A stretch of 64,000 nt of DNA from NCBI GenBank assembly GCA_004335835.1, contig RWJK01001857.1:1-64000 (forward strand), written 5' to 3'. The position numbers and the translations under genes were made by a program. The notes below the pieces were generated by a model. It did not search any database, had not been told where the DNA came from, and saw nothing but the letters and a program-made list of their open reading frames with translations. The number at the start of each line of letters is the position of its first letter. Position 1 is the first letter of the stretch. The stretch is from Scenedesmus sp. ARA3. Lineage: Eukaryota > Chlorophyta > Chlorophyceae > Sphaeropleales > Scenedesmaceae. This document shows positions 27,049 to 41,000 of the stretch, piece by piece.

Positions 27049-28709
27049 CACTGCTGCTGCTGCTGATGCTGGCACTGCTGCCGCTGCTGCTGCTGCTGCT
27101 TCCAGCTCCGCGCCTTCTGCAGCTGCTGTGCCAGCACTGCCGGCTGCCGTGCCTGCGTCTCTGCTGCAGTCCCTGCTGGTGCCGTCCCTGCTGGTGCCGT
27201 CTCTGCTGTTGGTGTGCTGCTGCTGCTGCTGCTGCTGGCTGATGCTTGCAAGCTCCTCACTCAGCACGCGCAGCAGCCGCACAACCATGTGGCGATCGCG
27301 CCCCTGCACACATATAAGCACATGCGTGGCAGCAGCAGCGGCGGCAGTAGCAGCAGCACGATGACAGCACCAAGCAGACTTCAGTCCTTTGCTATGCACA
27401 GTGCAGCAACTGGTGCACTGCTGGCCACACAGGACAAAATTTATTGTGCTGCTGTTGCTGTGACTCAGCTCACCGTCAGCCGCTGCAGCATGGCCTCGTG
27501 GTTGGCCGGCGCCTGCCCCCACATGGAGGCCAGGAACAGGTACACGTGCTGCAGCACCATTCACTCAGCTGGCACCAATGCTGCTGCCACCACCGCAATG
27601 TATGCTGCTGCTGCTGCTGTTGCTGCTGCTGTGGTTGCTCACCGTCAGCCGCTGCAGCATGGCGTCATGGTTGGCTGGCGCCTGCCCCCACATGGATGCT
27701 AAAAACAGGTACACGTGCTGCAGCCCCTGGCAGCTGACAATGGCCCGCGAGGCCTCCAGCTGCAGGACACGGCAGGACAGGTGGGTTTGCAGGACAGGAG
27801 GGTTTGGGGGTTTGGAGGGTTTGCAGGAAAACAGGGCTTGCAGGAATGGTGCCGGGTGCGGTTGGTGAAGCGCGAAAGGTGTTAACAGGCACCGCAGCAT
27901 GGGCGCTGGTAGGGTGCAGCTGGCCATTGCTGCCTGATGCTGCTGGCAGAGGCTGCTGCAAATAGCTGGTTGTCCAGTCATGGTGACTAGGTGCTGATCA
28001 TGATTAAGTATTGCTGCAGCGTATGGTGGGCTCGCTCCGCATGCCATGACACACAGTGTCGGACGCTTGATGTCAGCTGCTACCTGTACCTTGCTGCTCA
28101 TGCAATGATCAGGGAAACGATGCAGCACGCACGCCACAGCTTGACAATACTGCTGCAGCAACTATTGCATCTCACCTGTGCAGTGGCCTCTGCAGCATCT
28201 GCTGAGCGCATGCTGGCTGCTGCCTCCAGCTGCTTGCTGTTCTGCTGCTGCCCGCCCTCATCACTGTCCACCTCGCCCCGCGTGCTGGCCCGCGTGGAAG
28301 CCTCAGACATGAGCCGCATGTGTTTCGCATCCAGAACAGCAGAAGATGCCTGAGAAGCCAGCGGGGCATCGCTGGCGCGCCGCTTGGGCCGTGGAGGTGG
28401 GATGGCATCAGTAGACTGCCCAGACTTGAGCACCTTCTGGAAGTACTTCTGCGCGTGGCTGCGGATCTGAACTACTGTCTTCGTGCCTACATAGGACTCA
28501 ATCTTCTTCCAGTCCCTGTTGTAGAGCTGCAGAGCCTTGATGAAGCGCTCGTGCTCATCGTTCGTCCAGCTCTCTCGCTGCTTGGTGAGCGTATAAGGTT
28601 TCCTGTTCTTTTTATGCTTCTCTGGCTCGTCAGGCTGCATCATGCTGGCGAGACGCTGCCTGAAGTTCACTGCTGCTGTGGTGACAGCCCCAGGTGTGCA
28701 GCAGACCTG
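26370..28709 (-). CDS. REVEILLE/LCL-type SHAQKYF MYB transcription factor
   Basis: Exons: 28709-28176, 27759-27643, 27303-26946 and 26722-26370, in phase. An upstream first exon is possible because 28709 follows a good acceptor; otherwise the start is the ATG at 28643 ([12 protein letters not shown]). The single MYB repeat runs from [20 protein letters not shown] through [17 protein letters not shown] to [16 protein letters not shown], with PPPRPKRRA just after. Both are hallmarks of the plant RVE8/LCL subgroup, which binds evening-element-like DNA in the nucleus and works in the circadian clock. The later exons ([28 protein letters not shown]) fit the conserved C-terminal LCL domain. A long Gln/Ala-rich tail follows. 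A TAG at 26370-26372 interrupts a poly-Q run; the same frame stays open to 25986. A clock role here is inferred from family. Confidence 0.88.
27474..27548 (-). repeat. Second, intact copy of the LCL exon
   Basis: A 75-bp segment between an acceptor-like gctgcag and an ACG|GTGAGC donor encodes the same 25 residues as the end of the 27759-27643 exon, with one change (NHDAM to NHEAM). Its length keeps frame. Confidence 0.75.
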
Positions 28710-29158
28710 CTGCTCAAAAAAGATGAGAGACAGCAAGACATGAAAGCGCTGAACGATCTCACAACAGACGTCTGAGCTGGTGGCACTTATGCAAATGGAC
28801 GGTTGCAGGTCATAACAGCAGCTGTTACACAGTAACAGTCAGGACTGCTGTGGAGCTCCCACATGCTGCGGCAAGTCAGCTGTCTTGCCATGCTCGCAGT
28901 GCATGCCTTGCCTGTAAAGCACCCTTGTGTGTCAGATGTTGCAATCACATCATTCTGGCTGAGATCCCTGCCGGTTAGGCACCACCCACTTGTGGTTCTC
29001 GCTGACCTGTCCAAAGTTTCACTTGTAAATGTGGCGAAGTTCACGTTGCTGACACAGGACCCCATAAAAGCTGCCTCTTACTTTTATTGACCACCATAGA
29101 TAAATGACAACAGTGCATGTTTCAGTGCCACAGTCGGACTCTGGCCAGCATACATCCC

Positions 29159-29261
29159 TCAACCACTGGCAGCTGACTTATGGAATGGCTGCACACTAAC
29201 AGGGCGCCAGCTGACAGCCCCCTCCTCCGACACAGAGAGCAGCTTTAGCACAAGCGAGCCG

Positions 29262-29303
<42 letters not shown>

Positions 29304-31152
29304 TGTTGAAATCCATCCTCACCGCCATCTCCACTACCGCAATTGCTACTGCTGCTGCTGCTGCTGCTGTCACTGCACCCTCCATACAGCAGCTCTGCCA
29401 GCAGCTCCACCCCATCCCACAACCTAGGGCCTGGCCTGCTGAACAGGCCATGGTCAACGACATAAGTTTGACCAGATCTGACAGCTGCCAGGTCAGCAAA
29501 GCCAGGCTGCTGAGTCAGCAATAACACATCAGGCATGGCTGCTGCAGGGCTGCGGCTGCAGGGCGACAGCAGCAGCACGTCCGGGGCCCATGCAACAATC
29601 TGCAGCAGCAAACGTTTTGCCAAGACAAACAGTAGCAATGGCAGCAGTGGCAGCAGTCGACATGTTGAAATGAAAGTCACAGAAAGCCAAAGACAAGCAG
29701 CTTGGCTGTGCAACAGCTCAAGTTACAACTGTGCAGGCAAGAGCTTGTTGGAACTGAGCCAGGGGTGCTTGCTTCATTTGAACTGCTGAAGGCAGTGTTT
29801 AGCAAGCCTACAAACTGTAGAAAGCCGGCTCATTGAAGGTTGGCCAACAGGCTCACCTGCTGCCATGTGATGCGATCAGGGCTGTCACCCGGCTGCTGCC
29901 CATAAGCGTCAGCAGCGCCCGCTGCCGCCTTCACATTTGGCATGCGACTAAACCCTGCACAGCTGCCGTGCAGGGAGCTTGTCTGACACCCAAGTCACTG
30001 CAAGAGATCATATCTGAGATCATAACTGCTCACCTGCTGCCATGTGATGCGAGCAGGGCTGTCACCAGGCTGCTGCCCAGAAGCATCAGCAGCGCCCGCT
30101 GCCGCCTTCACATCAGGCAGCCACTGCCCACCAAGCACCAGAGGGTTTAGCCCCTCCAGGGACAAAACCCTGGGAGGCTGGAGCCACACACGCTGCTGCA
30201 GGGGCTGCTGCTGCTGCTGCTGGTGGTTCTGGTGCTTGTTGCAGCCTTGGTTGATCGATGCCAGCTCACTACTGCTGCCGCCGTCATTAGCGGTGCCTCC
30301 ACCGCAGCTACTGCCGCTGCAACAACTGCTTTCAACACTATAGGTGGCACCAGCCGCTTTTGTGCCTGGCAGCATATAAGCACTAGCTGTACATGCAGCA
30401 GTGACAGCAGCAGCAGCAGGGCAGGCTGCAGCTACCCTGGCTGCCACCTTTACCAGCCTCTGCTGCAGCTGCTCCACCAATTCAACTGCTGCCTCAACTG
30501 CGCCTGCTGCACGCCCAACTGCCAGAATGCTGTCTAGAACCTCCGCCAGGGTTTTGGGGTGCAGCACTACAACCTGTGTGGTGCTGTGGTTTAGGCCCGC
30601 CTGCTGCAGGGCTTTGCAGACTAAGCTGCAGTCTGCGTCACATGTGCCGCACGCATCCTGCAAGGCACATGATGACAGCATGGAGCATAATAAAAACAAA
30701 GGATGTCAATGTAATGACATGACATGAGCCTTTTTCTGGCTCCTTTTGTGGGTGGGCCTGTGGCCCTACTTTGGTAGCTGGTAAGGTGCACAGGAGTCTT
30801 CACTGCAGAAGCACCACACTCTCAGCTCATGCAGTTGCTGAAGCAACCAAGGAGTTCACGCTGTGAGTCAACACTGTTGCGCCTGTTGCTAGCTGCTAGC
30901 TAGTCGCGCTGCTGCTGCTGCTGCTGCTGCTGCCACACCAGCCCGCTGCCGTGCTCACACTGTTGTGTGACAACTTGTGTATGTTACTAACAACTAACAA
31001 GTCCTGCCACTGCCGGTGCTGCTGCTGCTGCTGCTGCCGCACCTGTGTCAGCACCAGGCCAGGCCGCTGCTGTGCCAGTAGCTGCGCGTCAACCTCAAAA
31101 GGGCTGCTGCCTGACGCCTTGAAGCCCTGCAGCCAGCAGCAGAAGTAGCGGC

Positions 31153-31191
<39 letters not shown>

Positions 31192-31979
31192 CATATATGG
31201 ATGTTCAACCCTTCAGCGCCGGCTGCACTGCCCTGCCTCTCTTGCTCAAACAGGGCTGCAGTGTACTCTGCAGCACCAACAGCAACATGCTGAGGTGACC
31301 AGGGGCACATAAACATGCACGCAGGTAGTACTGCAGTTTACAGCACATGCAAAACAAAAGGATTCGTAGCAGTCTCAGCTGCATGTTCAAGTACATCAGC
31401 TGTGGCTTGTCCCAACGCAAACACCAACCTGCATTGCAGCCTCAATCTCATCTGATGTCATCGCATCAACATCAATCAGCGACCGGACTGCCACAGGCTT
31501 GCCTCGCGCTTCAGGCGGGTAGTCACAAAACCCTGACACACCAACCACCCGGGCCCCTAAACCCAGGGCATACAGGATCTCGGTACCGCTTGGCAGCAAC
31601 GACACAATCCTGTCACTCCTGCTGCTGCTGCTGCTGCCGCCGCCAATTTGTACTGCATGGCTTGGCGTGCTGCTGCTGCTAGCCTCACAGCTGCGGCTGC
31701 AGCATAGACAGTTCTGCACACTTACTGCTGCAGCAAAGCTGCTGTTGCTGCCAGCAGCAGCAGGAGCAGCGGCATGCTGAGGTGGCAGCAGCACCTCCCC
31801 GCTTTCTGCTGTTGCAACGCTGCTGCTGCAGCACTGTTCAACAAAGGCAGCAGCAAGCGCAGGGCAGCCCCCAAAGTGCAGGTGCACATAGCTTGCAAGC
31901 ACATTGCCAATGCTGTACCCTTCGGGCTCTGGCTCAGCTCCTGGCAGCACCTTCAGCAGCTGATACGTGTGCCGCAAGC

Positions 31980-32015
<36 letters not shown>

Positions 32016-34301
32016 GCTGTGTGTCCGTGGAGAGTACTACAGGTACTGCTGCTGCCGCTGAACCATCTGCGCTGTTGCTGGCTGCTGCTGCTGCTGCTGC
32101 TGCTGATGCCTCCTGAGCCACAACCTCACTGAAGTGGTACAGCTGCCCCCGAGCTGTCACCCCAGCAGGAAACAGAGGGCTGGCATCTAACACCTGAACC
32201 TCAACATACCCCATCTTCATGCCTCCCATGCGGATGCTGAAAGGCAGCACACCAGCAAGCGGCACCAGCTGCTCCTGCTTTTGTTTGAATGTGCTGCTGC
32301 TGCTGCTGCTGCTGTCAGTGCTTGCTGCAACTCCAGCGTCTGGCTGCTGCTGCTGCTGCTTTGGGCTGCATGTTGATGCCTTACCGTTTGCAAGGTTGCT
32401 GCTGCTGCTGCTGCTAGGCTGCTGCTGCTGCAGCACCCCTTTGCTCAGGTACATCAGCCCCCCACACTCCGCATACACCACCCCTCCAGCAGCAGCAAAT
32501 GTGCGCAGCTGCTGCAGCAGCGCTGCGTTGCTGCTCAACTGCTGCAGATGCTGCTCGGGATACCCCCCACCCACATAGATTCCAGAAATGCCAGCTGGCA
32601 GTGAAGCATCTTTCAGGGGGCTGAAGTGTACTAGATCAGCACCTGCTGCTTGCAGCAGCGTCAGGTTGTCATGATAGTAGAAGCAGAAGGCTTCGTCACG
32701 CGCTACTGCTATCCTGCACCTGTTGCTGCTGCTGCTGCTGCTGCTGCCGCTGCCATTGCTGTCAATATGTGCTACGGCTTTCGCGTGTTCAGCAGCACTG
32801 CATGTTGGCACTGGTACAGCAACATCATCCGGAGACTCAGATTGCGTAGCTGCGGGAGTTTCTGCATCAGCTGCTGCTGCTGCTGCTGTCGCAGGGGGTG
32901 GCGGGACAGCTGCTGTTGCTGCTAGCTGCAGCAGCAGCTCCAGGTCTGTGTGCTGCTGCACAAGCCTGCCCAGCCGCTGAACATACTCAGGCACCTGCTG
33001 CTGCTGCTGCTTCTTCTTCTTGTCATTTCCCAACTTATCCTGCTGCTGCTGCTGCTGCTGCTGCTCGTGTGGCATGGTGAGGCCCAGGTGCCGCTCAGGC
33101 ACAGCCACAGCCGCATCCTGCAGGCAGCAACGCAAAGCAGGGCTGGTTCTTTCACACAATTGCAGTCTGCGACACACTCATGTGCATCCCACGGAAGCAA
33201 CACAGCAGCTTATGGTGATGTTGCACGCAACCAGCAGCTCAGTGAGACCAATTTCCATGTGCTCTGTATGGCCCTGCAGCTCTCTGCTCAGTGCAAGCCA
33301 GCCAAATGTCAAATTGTTTTCTACCGTATCACAAGGCTGCGTTCTAGTGCTAGGTGTAACGCTGCAGTGAATGGTGAAGCACAATCCCAACAGCTCTGAG
33401 CGCAGCAAGTGCAGCAGCCAGCTGCTGTGGCGACCCACTAGTGTACTGCCTACCTTGGGTATGCATCCGAGCACCTGTACTGCTGCCAGGCCAACTGCAC
33501 CACGCGGCTGCTGCTGCTGCTGCTGCTGCTTGTTCTCCTGCGCAGCAGCTGCTGCTGCTGCTGGTGCTGCTGCTGCTGCCAGCGCCTCCTTCAGCCACAC
33601 CCCATGTGCAGCACTGCCCACTTTGTTCAGCAGCAGGCCCCTCAGGTTCAAATCCTGGTCAAACTCTGCGTAGCCTTTGACCAGCGCTGCTACAGACCGT
33701 GCCATGGCCCAGCAGTCAACCACCAGCACCACTGGAGCACCCAGCCACTTGGCAATCTGCAGCAGCACCAGCAGAAGCATGCACAGAAGAGGAAAATGAC
33801 ATAAGCATTGGCTCATCCGCGCACTTACCAGAACTCAAGACATAACACCTGGCTCTCAGCACAAGCACCTGCTGCATATTCAGATGTACCACAGCGGCAG
33901 CAGCTGCTGCCAGCCACATAGCAGCCTGCCTTCCAGTAACCCTGCTGTTGCTGCTTGTCAGTTGGCATCATATAAAGCAGTTCAAGCAGCTCTGCTGTTT
34001 CCCGCAGGCTGCAGGAAAGCAAGCGGCTACCTGTGCTGTCCTGCTGTCTGCATGGAACCAACAGTGCTGTACAAGCAGCTGTTTCCTGCAGGCTGCAGGG
34101 AAGCACGCGGCTCATCTGTGCTGTGCTGCCGTCTGCATGGAACCAACAGTGCTTTACAAGCAGCAAATTCCTGCAGGCTGCAGGGAAGCATGCGGCTACC
34201 TGTGCTGTGCTGCCGTCCTCGCTGCTGCCGTCCCTGCTGTCAAACAAGCCCATCACTCCCTCCACCACAGCAATGTCAGTATCTGCGGTGTGCCTGCACG
34301 C

Positions 34302-34361
<60 letters not shown>

Positions 34362-34411
34362 NNNNNNNNNNNNNNNNNNNNNNNNNNNNNNNNNNNNNNN
34401 NNNNNNNNNNN

Positions 34412-34468
<57 letters not shown>

Positions 34469-35855
34469 CTGTCACATGCAGCATTCATGACCACATATGA
34501 TGCCAGCATCTACAATGCATCATCAAAAAATAAGGTTGCTCCAGGAGCAGTGGCTCAGCCCATGTGTCACTTACACCAAGCCGTTGTGTTGCTTTGACCA
34601 GGCTCATGTCATGTTTGACCAGGCATGGGTTTGCTTGCTCACCTACGGAAGGTGTCCAGCACCTGCTGATGTGTCTATAACAGTATTTATGCACTCGGCC
34701 TAGCCATTTGTCGCGTTAAATGGCTAGGTGCTTTTGTGTTAGTTTGACCAGGCACATGTCATGTCTGACCCGGCGTAAGTGTGCTTGCACACCTGTGGAA
34801 GGTGTCCAGCACCCGCTGACGTGTCAGCATCCAGCCATGTATAAGATAGCGTGAGAGTACTGGTTTATGTGCAACAATTTGGGGACTACACCACTGGTTG
34901 AAGCCTTGAAGCCCAAGAAGGCCGAGTAATTGAACCATAAACCCCGCATCTCCCTTTCCAGACATGACTATTAGCCAGCCGAACAGGACCAACACGTCCG
35001 TGCTACTGTTCGCCGGATTACATACAGTAGTCGATTTGTCTCTTTTGCTGGCTCACCTGCGGAAGGTGTCCAGCACCTGCTGGCTTCACTTCAAATGGCT
35101 AGGTGTTTTTGTGTCGCTTTGACCAGGCACTTGTCATGTTTGACCAGTCACATGTCATGTTTGACCATACCTGTGGAAGGTGTCCAGCACCTGCTGACGT
35201 GTCAGCATCCAGCCATCAAGGTTGATGGAGGGCCGGCCAGTAGCTGCAGCGTGGTGCATAGGGTCTAGGAAGTCAGGCCCAACCTTGAACCCTTGCACAA
35301 CAAGGCCTTGCTGCCTGCAGGAAAGATGTTGGTGCAGCAGTTTAGAGGATAGCATGCTAGGATGTGTGCCCCAACAACGCAGCATCTACAGTTTTGCGGC
35401 TGTGGTGTGTGTATGCTTGTTATGGGAGCCACTGAGCTGCGGCTGCGGGTGCACTAGCGTGCCTATGATGCGTTGATAACTTGTGCATGTGCTTTGCACT
35501 TGCACGTAGATGCTCCTGATGAGCCTGGTTGTATTGTTGAATGCCAAGGTGCCAAGCAGGGCTTTCACGTAGCACAGCAGCCACAACAGCAGCAGCAGCT
35601 TGTGCCTGGCAGCTGTTGCAAAGTGTGGATTTCGGCAAACTTCTAAAACTGTGTGATCGATAGGTTGCCAGCCTGCAACCATATCTTTTGCAGACATGCC
35701 TTGTTGGTCTTAGCTTGTGAAGTAATGCCTGCAGCAGCAGCAGCAGTACCACTGCCATGCTGCAGTGCAGCACACCTGAGCGCCTGCATCACTCCCGTCG
35801 CCAGCGACGTCTTCCCCACGCCACTGTGCGTGCCCGCAATCACAATGACCTTCAT
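29159..35855 (-). CDS. Cobyrinate a,c-diamide synthase (CobB/CbiA) fused to BtuF-like domain
   Basis: Eight exons close in phase to 1152 residues: 35855-35776, 35314-35171, 34293-34200, 33756-33454, 33117-31429, 31126-31043, 30657-30034 and 29599-29159. Residues 1-230 are the CobB P-loop amidotransferase half: GTHSGVGKTS, FKVGPDFLDPMHH, NLDGWMLT, VVEGVMGLFD, GSTAQ, LGAPVVLVVDCWAMARSVAA and VPERHLGL. Residues 343-640 are the GATase half, with AECGGLMYLSKGV (nucleophile Cys425), MGYVEVQ and SYVHLHF. Residues 710-1130 match the BtuF/COG0614 cobalamin-binding fold: RIVSLLPSGTEILYALGLGA, DYPPEA, VLTQDACGTCDADC, LSLEGLNPLVLGGQWLPDV, RITWQQ, FSRPGPRLWDGVELLAEL. The bacterial enzyme amidates cobyrinate side chains a and c with glutamine and ATP. 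No signal or transit peptide is seen, so it is probably cytosolic. Ser/Gln runs lengthen the linkers. Substrate and role are unknown here. Confidence 0.9.
29845..29940 (-). repeat. Copy of the exon 7 tail of the CobB-BtuF gene
   Basis: GQQPGDSPARITWQQ with its GTGAGC donor recurs 170 bp downstream in the intron as GQQPGDSPDRITWQQ plus donor. Confidence 0.85.
34005..34195 (-). repeat. Copies of the exon 3 tail of the CobB-BtuF gene
   Basis: Three tandem units of about 60-75 bp follow the 34293-34200 exon. Each carries a version of DGSTAQ and a ctgcaggctgcaggaaa segment. Confidence 0.8.
34302..34465. repeat. (CAG)n/(CTG)n expansion with a 50-N assembly gap
   Basis: About 60 bp of pure CAG precede and about 55 bp follow 50 Ns (34362-34411), within intron 2 of the CobB-BtuF gene and 9 bp from its acceptor. 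The true length is unknown. Confidence 0.95.
34600..35165 (-). repeat. Copies of the exon 2 tail of the CobB-BtuF gene
   Basis: The exon end (QQVLDTFHR, with AG|GT) recurs at about 34641-34665, 34785-34850 (longer, from GWMLTRQRVLDTFH) and 35055-35080. Between them lie repeats of tttgaccaggcacatgtcatg. Confidence 0.85.
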
Positions 35856-38067: not shown

Positions 38068-41000
38068 TTACGCAGACCTGCGCAGCTTCTTGGCGGACGG
38101 CGTGGTGCAGCCCTCAGGGAAGGCACCAGTGCCGGGCTTGCAGCAGGCCGCCTTGGTGGGGAACACCAGCGCCTTGCCAGCCTTCAGGTCATCAGCCAGC
38201 TTGCTGCCAATGTCATCGGCCTTAGCGGGCGCCTTGGCAAAGTAGGCGGTGGCTGCTGCCGGCACGTTGGCGCAGTTGCGCTCGCCGGAGGCCTGGTCCA
38301 GCGTGCCGAACCACGCGCCCAGGTTGCACTCAGGCCTAGGGGGCACGCTGTTCATCTTACGCTTCATGAACTCGGAGTGGTCCTGGATGACAGCCATGGT
38401 GGAGTCGGAGTCGTCCACGCCGTACGGCCCGCGCGCATCCTGGCCGTCAAACACGGGGATAGCCAGCTTCCAGAACAGCGAGCCGGCGATCGGCTGCTTG
38501 CCGTCGATGGCCTTCTCAACGGATGCATAGGTGGACTGGTAGATGGGGTCGCGCAGCTGCTGGATCATCCACTCGGTCTGCTGGTCGGCGTTGAGCTTCT
38601 TGCCGAACTCCTCAAACATGATGGGCTTGGAGCCGGAGGAGAGGTTGGCGCCGGCAGTCATGTGCGACTGCACCCACTTGTCCAGGAAGGCGGGGATCTT
38701 GTCCTGCAGGGGCAGAAAGAAAAGGAGTTGGCGGCAGCGTGTAAGCTTCGATCCAAAGGTTCTGGACAGTTGCGGAAGGTTGTGTGGCTGGCGCATAAGT
38801 TCCTGCAAGCTGTGCACAACGACACAGACCACGGCATGCACTGCTGACCTGTCACACTGCCTGCATCTGCGGACCCCAAGGCTGCCCTGCTAGCTTTGCT
38901 GCCGACATGCAGCACCGAGCATCTGCGCGCACCTGGGGGAGCATCCAGTTGTCAGGCCACGCGTGCACGGTCGCAAAGTCGATGTTGGGCAGGTTGGTGT
39001 TCATCACAAAGTCCTGGCCCAGCTCGCGCGCCCACGCCTGCGGATTGTACTGCATCAGCTGCGGCGTGCTGTCGCCGTAGAAGCCCTCCGAGCCAATGGT
39101 GATGAGGTGGTTGGGGTCCAGGCTGCGCACGTGCGTGGACATCTCAGCCAGCCAGTTCTGGAAGCGCTTGTTGCAGTCCTTGTTGGACGCCAGCCACGAC
39201 TCGCAGCGAGGCTCGTTGATGAGGTTCCACGCGATGATGGTGGGGTCGTCGCGGTACACGCGCCTGCAGGAAACACGAAGACAGATGAAGGCCTGAGGTC
39301 AAACCAAAGCAGCATGCACAGGGTTCTCAAGATGCTGCTGCTGTACAAAAGGACAATGTGCTGCAACTGCCAGCAACCGGCTACAAGTGCTCCCCTACAA
39401 GGCATGCCAGCAGCCCTGCCTGCAGGACTGCTGCTCTGCCAAGCTCTGCTCACCCGTTGATGCTGTTGTTCCTGTTGACGAGGAATGCCACGTGGTTCTT
39501 GTAGAACTTCTTCGCGTCGGGGTCCGAGAAGAACAGCGCGTGGCGCTCCGTCTCGTAGCGCTTCAGCTCCTCGCCAGCGGGGCCGGTGCCGTAGATGGCA
39601 GCGGTGGGGTCGCCCACCAGGTCCTTGAAGGGAGAGGCCAGCGTGCGGTTGGGGGCAGTGGAGGACCTGTAGAAGTGAAACAAACAGCACACGATGGTGA
39701 TGCAGGGGAGTGATGCAGGATGATGAGCAGACGGCGTAGCTGGCCTGCGCTAGGGCAGCCATGTCTGTGCACGCGGGGGTTGAACATAGGACCTTTGCAG
39801 GAACCCTCCAGCTGCTGTAAGAGCATCACTGCTGCCATCAGTTGCTCGCCCTGCACCGCCTGCCTCACGTACCGCTAGCAGCAACACCCAGCAGCCGCAC
39901 CGCCACTCACCAGTCCACGTACTGGTCCACGCCGTTGTAGTACTTCCAGTTGTCGATGAACGACAGGATCACCTGCAGGCCGTACTTGCGTGCCGTCTCC
40001 AGCACAAAGTCCAGCGACTTGAGGCCACGCTCGTCGTACTTGCCGGGAGCCACCTGCAGGACACACCATTGCAGGAAACAACAAGCGCAGCAGGGAAGGG
40101 GTCAGGGCTATGTTGCAGCTGCTTGCGAGGCTGCTGCAGCATGTCAGTGATGCACAAGAATGAAGCGGTTGCGTATGTTGCATATGTTGCTGCTGTTAGA
40201 TATGTTGCGCTGTGCTGGTGCTGCTGCAGCTGGCTCAGCAACCACTGCGAAGCAGTATGCTTGCACGCATAGGCGTTTACAGGCAGAAACACGCCGGACC
40301 AGACTTAAAGGTGTGGCAACATGTGAGCTGCTGCGCTGCTGCCTCTCCTGCAAGCGCACCTGGAAGGGGTACAGTGCTGTGGTGGTGTGTGCCCACATGC
40401 GGACTGTGTTGATGCCGCGTGCTGCAGCCGACCGCAGAGTGTCGTCAACAATCTGTGCTCCAGACCGGTCACCTGCACAATAAAATGTTGACAACGTCAG
40501 GAGCAAGCACCAAAAACACATCAGGGATCCTTAACAGCAACCCAAACCATTGTCCCAACAACTGCCTGCGGCAACAGCTGGGGTCGTACCAACAACTGGA
40601 AGCCACAGATGCAACTGACGTAACAGGCTGCTGGCAGCTGCATAATGTGTGTTTCTAAATCAAAGGCTTGTATAGTTCGCTGGCGAGCAACAATGGCAGT
40701 CCGGTGCACCCATTGCTGCTTGGCGCTCGTGTATCAGCTGCTTGCCGCGGCAGCCACGCGGTTGTTGCTACTGCTGCACTCCTCAACCACTGCAGCAAAG
40801 GCTCCTAGCATGCTGCTGTTGCTTGCAGGAATCCCACCAGACATGCAGCAAATCACCATCAAAGACAGTGAAACAGAAACTGCACAAGAATGCTGCTGCA
40901 GCTAGTCCATGCACTGTTTGGCGCTGCACAGCGTTGTACGCACCGACTGTCTCTGCACGACGGGATACCATTGCTGCTTCTACCAGCTCATATGCGTTGA

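Follow-up and report, generated by a model that had tools for sequence, protein, structure and literature searches.

A CobB-BtuF-like fusion gene in the green alga Scenedesmus sp. ARA3 belongs to a broad eukaryotic family

Introduction

In the green alga Scenedesmus sp. ARA3 (assembly GCA_004335835.1; 87.27 Mb in 1567 contigs), contig RWJK01001857.1 carries a gene that joins a CobB/CbiA-type cobyrinate a,c-diamide synthase to a domain resembling the corrinoid-binding protein BtuF. Cobalamin synthesis is generally regarded as purely prokaryotic. The question that this locus raises is whether the fusion is a genuine eukaryotic gene and, if so, what its product would do in an alga. We analysed positions 1 to 64,000 of the contig (the window, 64,000 nucleotides), starting from an interpretation made without database searches, here called the sequence-only reading. 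We find that the fusion is a member of an old, broad eukaryotic family and not a local oddity. A literature search of open texts, with most subscription journals outside its reach, gave no description of a CobB-BtuF fusion, which is not proof that none exists; a transcriptome paper mentions a prymnesiophyte CobB-like protein (PMC4057078).

Results

Gene structure and the fusion joint

The gene runs on the minus strand from 35855 to 29159, with eight exons (Table 1) encoding 1152 amino acids (aa) and a stop codon ending at 29159. The splice model was fitted by hand to homology and consensus sites, from genomic DNA alone. All introns in it are GT-AG and the exon start phases (0/2/2/0/0/0/0/0) are compatible, so the earlier proposal that both halves share one frame over eight exons is borne out. 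A 50-base N gap (34362-34411) lies within intron 2. Exon 5 is a single open frame that holds the glutamine amidotransferase (GATase) half together with the opening ~60 residues of the BtuF half, and matches to PF07685 (E 7.6e-25) and to the start of PF01497 (E 0.0014, under the Pfam cut-off) share one 593-aa frame. Since the joint lies inside this open exon, the fusion does not depend on a guessed intron at the joint. We regard the fusion as real and the locus as a functional-looking nuclear gene.

Copies of exon ends were seen in three introns. Intron 7 contains a decayed copy of the end of exon 7 with its donor (29851-29942 versus 30028-30119; 92 nucleotides, 93% identity). In intron 2 (34638-35216) the end of exon 2 and three intron copies form a 51-nucleotide family, 71-100% identical to the reference, and in intron 3 (33999-34217) a 50-nucleotide repeat is a decayed exon 3 end with its donor (90%), besides a separate internal 82-nucleotide repeat (91%). 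These copies could be relevant to intron growth or to alternative donor sites.

Table 1. Features of the fusion gene (window coordinates)
Feature	Position	Strand	Content
Exon 1	35776..35855	-	aa 1-26 and part of 27; start codon; P-loop GTHSGVGKTS at 35805-35834; donor GTGTGC
Exon 2	35171..35314	-	QQGLVVQGFKVGPDFLDP...LDGWMLTRQQVLDTFH; acceptor TTTCCTGCAG, donor GTATGG
Exon 3	34200..34293	-	ADTDIAVVEGVMGLFDSRDGSSEDGSTAQ
Exon 4	33454..33756	-	IAKWLGAPVVLVVD...VLGCIPK; includes Ala/Gln-rich insert
Exon 5	31429..33117	-	563 codons; end of CobB synthetase domain, whole GATase_3, Ser-rich linker, start of BtuF-like domain (fusion joint)
Exon 6	31043..31126	-	GFKASGSSPFEVDAQLLAQQRPGLVLTQ
Exon 7	30034..30657	-	DACGTCDADCS...RVLSLEGLNPLVLGGQWLPDVK...ITWQQ
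Exon 8	29159..29599	-	IVAWAPDVLLLSPC...FSRPGPRLWDGVELLAELLYGG, then poly-Gln tail and stop
GATase nucleophile Cys425 in AECGG	32464..32466	-	Motif reading; Cys in 83/102 fusions
GATase histidine motif SYVHLHF, aa 616-622	31873..31893	-	Motif reading
BtuF-like domain (class III periplasmic-binding-protein fold), aa 709-1080	29378..31614	-	Exons 5-8; CDYP, QDxCxxC and SPC cysteines

Motifs, fold and relation to known proteins

The CobB half of the window protein is intact, with P-loop K15, GATase Cys425 and SYVHLHF at 616, and the three motifs GTHSGVGKTS, AECGG and SYVHLHF stand where the sequence-only reading had placed them. The protein passes the curated NCBIfam cut-offs of both CobB families, PRK01077 (427.9 versus 254 bits) and TIGR00379 (373.3 versus 261.4 bits), and is 51% identical (425 of 835 aligned residues) to a separately annotated Chlorokybus-type fusion (P0004). 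The PRK01077 score and this identity argue that the homology is not due to chance. CobB/CbiA proteins share its domain order, P-loop and GATase Cys and His; it differs from them in its BtuF-like fusion, its low-complexity inserts, which are repeat-rich and fall mostly at loops of the homologue model, and its host, in which CbiC and CobT are unmatched (see below). CfbB, the Ni-sirohydrochlorin a,c-diamide synthase, is a homologous amidotransferase, but the window protein fails its curated cut-off (347 versus 560 bits), which weakens the earlier suggestion of a CfbB-like activity.

The structure model of the Chlorokybus homologue (predicted local distance difference test score 91) places the second half nearest to heme-binding and B12-binding proteins, BtuF included, in fold matches, and on this model the BtuF half is predicted to have a class III periplasmic-binding-protein fold. 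The BtuF-like domain first proposed is therefore present, with a fold of tetrapyrrole-binding type in the homologue model, although its span is ~709-1080 and not 710-1130. By sequence, the CobB half of the Marchantia protein had no match in the PDB. Unlike BtuF, the domain is internal and has no export leader by sequence reading; in many fusions a CxxC and further cysteines of this half are conserved, three of four BtuF-half cysteines being gone in the Marchantia fusion. CBA1, a protein of algal B12 uptake, is distinct; it is described as structurally BtuF-like (PMC10828217), and the likeness drawn here is by description.

Only seven residues precede the P-loop of the window protein. Judged from the sequence and not by a predictor, this leaves no space for the usual transit or signal peptide and makes a cytosolic location probable. 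All eight sites counted are retained in the window protein and in 44 other fusions. Across the family the Glu beside the GATase Cys is constant (102/102), the Asp of LFD is present in 101 of 101 non-gap rows, and the 98 non-gap rows at the Glu position of VEG show E 85 times and D 13 times.

Spread of the fusion family

Two protein searches, each taken as the best 120 of thousands of matches, yielded 201 proteins, or 202 with the window protein, and 102 of these carry both halves as called by profiles built from 16 of the fusions themselves. All fusions from named organisms are eukaryotic. They come from chlorophytes (Myrmecia, Trebouxia, Monoraphidium, Tetraselmis, Chloropicon, Ostreobium, Bryopsis and others), streptophyte algae, liverworts (Marchantia, Riccia), mosses (Physcomitrium, Ceratodon), lycophytes (Selaginella, Diphasiastrum), saprolegnian oomycetes and the dinoflagellate Prorocentrum. 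We take Chlorokybus, Mesostigma, Mesotaenium, Spirogloea, Picochlorum and Tetraselmis striata to be the organisms behind their database codes. The label "green-algal" given by the sequence-only reading was thus too narrow, since the fusion is also found in streptophyte algae, land plants, oomycetes and a dinoflagellate. Many of the 102 fusions are metagenome proteins, and prokaryotic ones could be among them, no search having been aimed at prokaryotic fusions; some derive from short or damaged gene models. No Chlamydomonas, diatom or seed plant appeared by name among the best 120 matches of each search, which is not proof of absence. Among virus contigs, 22 stretches fitted a pattern and none was a relative.

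Pfam was weaker than our profiles, PF01497 falling under its cut-off in P0012, P0017 and P0021 and going unreported for P0011. In a Pfam scan of seven proteins, those of Prorocentrum and Saprolegnia had added Kelch repeats and DUF5522, one metagenome protein had DUF5522 only and four had neither; Kelch/DUF5522 additions also occur in other oomycete records. DUF5522 was also seen in the host genome apart from the fusion (G000:C1104:105495-105629).

Evolutionary origin of the two halves

In a tree of the CobB half (73 rows), 41 eukaryote-labelled rows lie on one side of a branch with a Shimodaira-Hasegawa-like approximate likelihood ratio test (SH-aLRT) support of 99, and in a tree of the BtuF half (74 rows) the same is true of 29 rows (SH-aLRT 96). 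The rows were hand-picked, metagenome fusions labelled eukaryotic by their architecture make up 9 of the 41 and 7 of the 29, and the rows labelled bacterial are mostly of unnamed source as well. Both trees are quick and unrooted and gave letter make-up warnings, and the CobB tree gave further warnings on two long branches, Picochlorum and the cobB of genome G029. With the eukaryotic rows of each half grouped together, these trees make a recent bacterial donor unlikely. The sequence-only reading had asked whether other green algae carry the fusion, and they do.

The CobB tree unites the streptophytes in a single group of 11 (support 89), which fits descent within green plants. This group is absent from the BtuF tree, where the land plants are joined to Chloropicon (91) and Spirogloea goes with metagenome rows (84). 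Both trees would allow a single fusion event, which they do not prove, and transfers of the fusion between lineages are possible. Three of the 41 eukaryote-labelled CobB rows have no BtuF half (Chara, Closterium and Rhizophlyctis); the last, P0197 from the chytrid Rhizophlyctis rosea, is a CobB-like protein of 467 aa on the eukaryotic side of the tree.

B12 genes and a second fusion in the host genome

The host genome encodes METH, METE and a cobalamin adenosyltransferase (Cob_adeno_trans). A six-frame, intron-blind search, in which each query matched 7 of 14 controls, gave no match to CbiC or CobT. The MMACHC query matched in no control genome, so the host search with it is uninformative. A whole-genome PF01497 query gave zero host matches and missed the window gene itself; further BtuF-like copies are possible.

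A second, intron-bearing fusion lies on contig C1546 at ~45.2-51.0 kb (L003 from 4192, L004 to 56). It has a P-loop exon, synthetase exons and a GATase in which GEGAA replaces AECGG, and its final open frame joins the end of CobB (35.9 bits) to a BtuF-like half (178.9 bits) with the family's usual tail. No exon with the FKVGPD motif was found by pattern search. From its sequence, this copy looks like a non-glutaminase.

Bacterial relatives and their gene neighbourhoods

Among the matches listed, the nearest unfused relatives of the BtuF half are soluble BtuF-like proteins (PF01497) of Nitrospira, Acidobacteria and others, which databases call 'iron complex transport system substrate-binding protein'. 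The best 120 are 315-391 aa long and 45-50% identical to the Chlorokybus-type domain. They mostly begin with the domain, and all 45 sampled have the CxxC; they differ in being separate genes, and our patterns for the first cysteine (CDYP type) and the last (PC[GS] type) fitted 16 and 14 of the 45, respectively. We fetched 80 loci for these relatives, with 66 usable reading frames in 65 loci. Since the first motif lay no more than 20 residues from the frame start in 51 frames (further in 13, unfound in 2), most of these proteins appear to have no leader. The loci are mostly from Nitrospira, and the recurrent neighbours there, named by eye, are phytoene/squalene-synthase-like and FAD-desaturase-like and offered no clue to function.

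A riboswitch scan of 12 of 20 chosen loci (8 being excluded for size) found cobalamin riboswitches in two. In L067 the order is btuF-like, riboswitch, cobU, cobB, and the position of the riboswitch makes it probable that the btuF-like gene is a separate transcript. In L087 the riboswitch is followed by a TonB receptor, a diphthamide-synthase-like PP-loop protein, btuF-like, cobO, a permease and an ATPase. The PP-loop protein (PF01902) adjoins a soluble BtuF-like gene in two different phyla (L087 4622-5314; L054 2115-2780).

Among 119 genomes of the phylum of L067, searched at E 1e-40, the btuF-like gene was found in 20, cobB in 22 (20 above the family cut-off) and both in four; they lie near each other in the starting genome, G001, and in G029, and are distant in G095 and G121. 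In G029 (L091) there is a four-base overlap between the btuF-like gene and cobB, whose order is opposite to that of most fusions, and the run is led by a cobalamin riboswitch (92.5 bits). The other genes of the run encode a TonB receptor, a PduO-type adenosyltransferase, a separate exported BtuF-like protein, a permease, an ATPase, a TIM-barrel protein and the products of cobQ, cobU, cobT, cobS and cbiB. Family cut-offs were passed by PduO, cobB, cobQ, cobU, cobT and cobS; the TonB receptor, exported binding protein and permease had B12 families among their best matches, under the cut-offs. This run is the best functional lead, with a soluble BtuF-like protein beside CobB in corrinoid uptake and salvage.

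The TIM-barrel protein (PF01261, AP_endonuc_2; L091 10478-11335) lies between cobQ and cobU. Some such proteins remodel cobamides (CbiR), and the G029 protein could be an enzyme of this type.

Genes next to the fusion gene

On the same strand, the fusion gene is adjoined by a single-Myb domain gene (28098-28838; PF00249) that carries a SHAQKYF motif. At 38852-39298, also on the minus strand, lies an exon encoding part of a glycosyl hydrolase family 5 protein (PF00150).

Discussion

We propose, with a confidence that stands at about the midpoint, that the window gene encodes a two-domain, probably cytosolic protein that captures corrinoids and amidates or re-amidates them for salvage or repair. 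Both halves would derive from the prokaryotic corrinoid toolkit and would have been joined early in the history of the family. The P-loop half would use ATP to activate acetate carboxylates on a cyclic tetrapyrrole, the GATase half (Cys425 and the His motif) would release ammonia from glutamine to amidate them, and the BtuF-fold half most likely holds the tetrapyrrole. In this alga, with its METH and cobalamin adenosyltransferase, the likeliest role would be that incomplete or de-amidated corrinoids are captured in the cytosol and their a and c side chains (re)amidated. We infer the ligand, the reaction, the location and the role in this scheme; the gene order of some bacterial kin strengthens its link to B12.

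A number of observations weigh against this proposal. The BtuF half fails the BtuF equivalog cut-off by a wide distance (27.5 versus 234 bits), no B12 link was seen by eye among the recurrent Nitrospira neighbours, and adjacency of the BtuF-like gene and CobB is rare in the phylum of L067. With CbiC and CobT unmatched in the host, cobyrinate would need an outside source. The N terminus varies: of 81 fusions with the P-loop Lys, the stretch ahead of the P-loop is no longer than 15 residues in 43 and longer in 38 (16-60 in 25, over 60 in 13). One of the 102 fusions (P0178, Tetraselmis code) has its halves in reversed order. The GATase Cys is replaced in 19 of the 102 (Gly 13, Ser 5, Ala 1), among them those of Riccia, Selaginella, Diphasiastrum, Bryopsis, Ostreobium and Picochlorum, and is retained in Marchantia, Physcomitrium and Ceratodon; at least seven state changes are needed on a tree of 95 rows (the 102 minus seven gapped at the first BtuF cysteine). 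Because of these replacements and changes, amidation seems dispensable in several lineages. In addition, METH is reported as not found in land plants outside hornworts (PMC11439496; see also PMC10828217), and of the 13 B12 proteins surveyed in PMC11439496, METE and METH included, liverworts are credited with CblB and CblJ and no METH. The fusion is nonetheless present in records of mosses, liverworts and lycophytes. A term search of PMC11439496 found CobB, cobyrinic and BtuF nowhere in it. The B12 connection is complicated both by the plants reported to be without METH and by a catalytic cysteine that was lost repeatedly.

A non-corrinoid cyclic tetrapyrrole of the siroheme/sirohydrochlorin type or another kind, amidated as by DsrN and CfbB, would explain why the fusion is kept in plants without METH (Marchantia, Riccia, Physcomitrium, Ceratodon, Selaginella and Diphasiastrum all have it). 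CobB homologues are described as having moved to other tetrapyrroles, DsrN to siroheme and CfbB to F430 (PMC10504309); DsrN is a prokaryotic sulfur-metabolism protein, likened here by description and not by sequence. Heme-binding proteins are also among the best fold matches of the modelled BtuF half. We nevertheless consider this substrate unlikely, since the window protein scores as CobB and not CfbB by curated cut-offs and some bacterial kin of its BtuF half stand beside B12 uptake and salvage genes near cobalamin riboswitches. Plant siroheme synthesis takes place in the plastid, and the short N terminus speaks against plastid import. It is unlikely, too, that in several lineages the protein is a tetrapyrrole-binding sensor, chaperone or scaffold whose enzyme half serves for fold or ATP binding only. 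The cysteine replacements fit such a role, with the P-loop Lys also gone in four cases (P0167 of Ostreobium, P0170 of Bryopsis, P0175 and P0176), as do the GEGAA of the second host copy and the Kelch and DUF5522 additions in Saprolegnia, Prorocentrum and other oomycetes; the full set of sites in the window protein and its 44 counterparts, and the invariant Glu beside the Cys, do not. A coupling between loss of the GATase Cys and loss of the CxxC/C4 cysteines of the BtuF half was dropped: all three BtuF-half cysteines are present in 57 of 83 fusions with the GATase Cys versus 2 of 19 without it (Fisher p 3.8e-6), but the link is unsupported once relatedness is allowed for (seven independent pairs; 1.4 the same way and 0.5 the other way on average).

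Explanations by artefact fare far worse. A mis-joining of two adjacent genes, or of a decaying gene, might be suspected from a model that rests on genomic DNA and from the decayed exon-end copies in introns 2, 3 and 7, but it is highly improbable: the frame is held across 1152 codons, a relative (P0010, its gene model short) joins the same halves, and the two-gene reading is rejected because exon 5 is open across the joint. Bacterial contamination or a chimeric assembly would agree with the prokaryotic ancestry of both halves and has practically no chance of being correct. The sequence-only reading had argued against it from introns and repeats, and rightly so given eight spliced exons and repeat-rich inserts mostly at model loops; further grounds for rejecting it are that eukaryotic rows group together in both trees, that named eukaryotic assemblies contain this fusion too, in some of them on megabase contigs, and that the host has a second intron-bearing copy.

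The conserved fusion of green plants, oomycetes and a dinoflagellate may represent a missed eukaryotic corrinoid salvage or another amidated tetrapyrrole, and the bacterial gene order offers an entry point to the soluble BtuF-like proteins, those of Nitrospira among them. Since the model plants Marchantia polymorpha and Physcomitrium patens both carry it, the question is directly testable there. More tentatively, and with a probability well short of even, the fusion may belong to an unrecognised tetrapyrrole-amidating pathway of eukaryotes, kept from algae to mosses, liverworts and lycophytes, in which it binds and amidates a cyclic tetrapyrrole other than the vitamin B12 that METH and MCM use; in several lineages the protein would later have become a non-enzymatic tetrapyrrole binder through loss of the glutaminase Cys. 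If the non-B12 tetrapyrrole reading were true, there would be an undescribed amidated cofactor or signal in plants considered to be B12-free.

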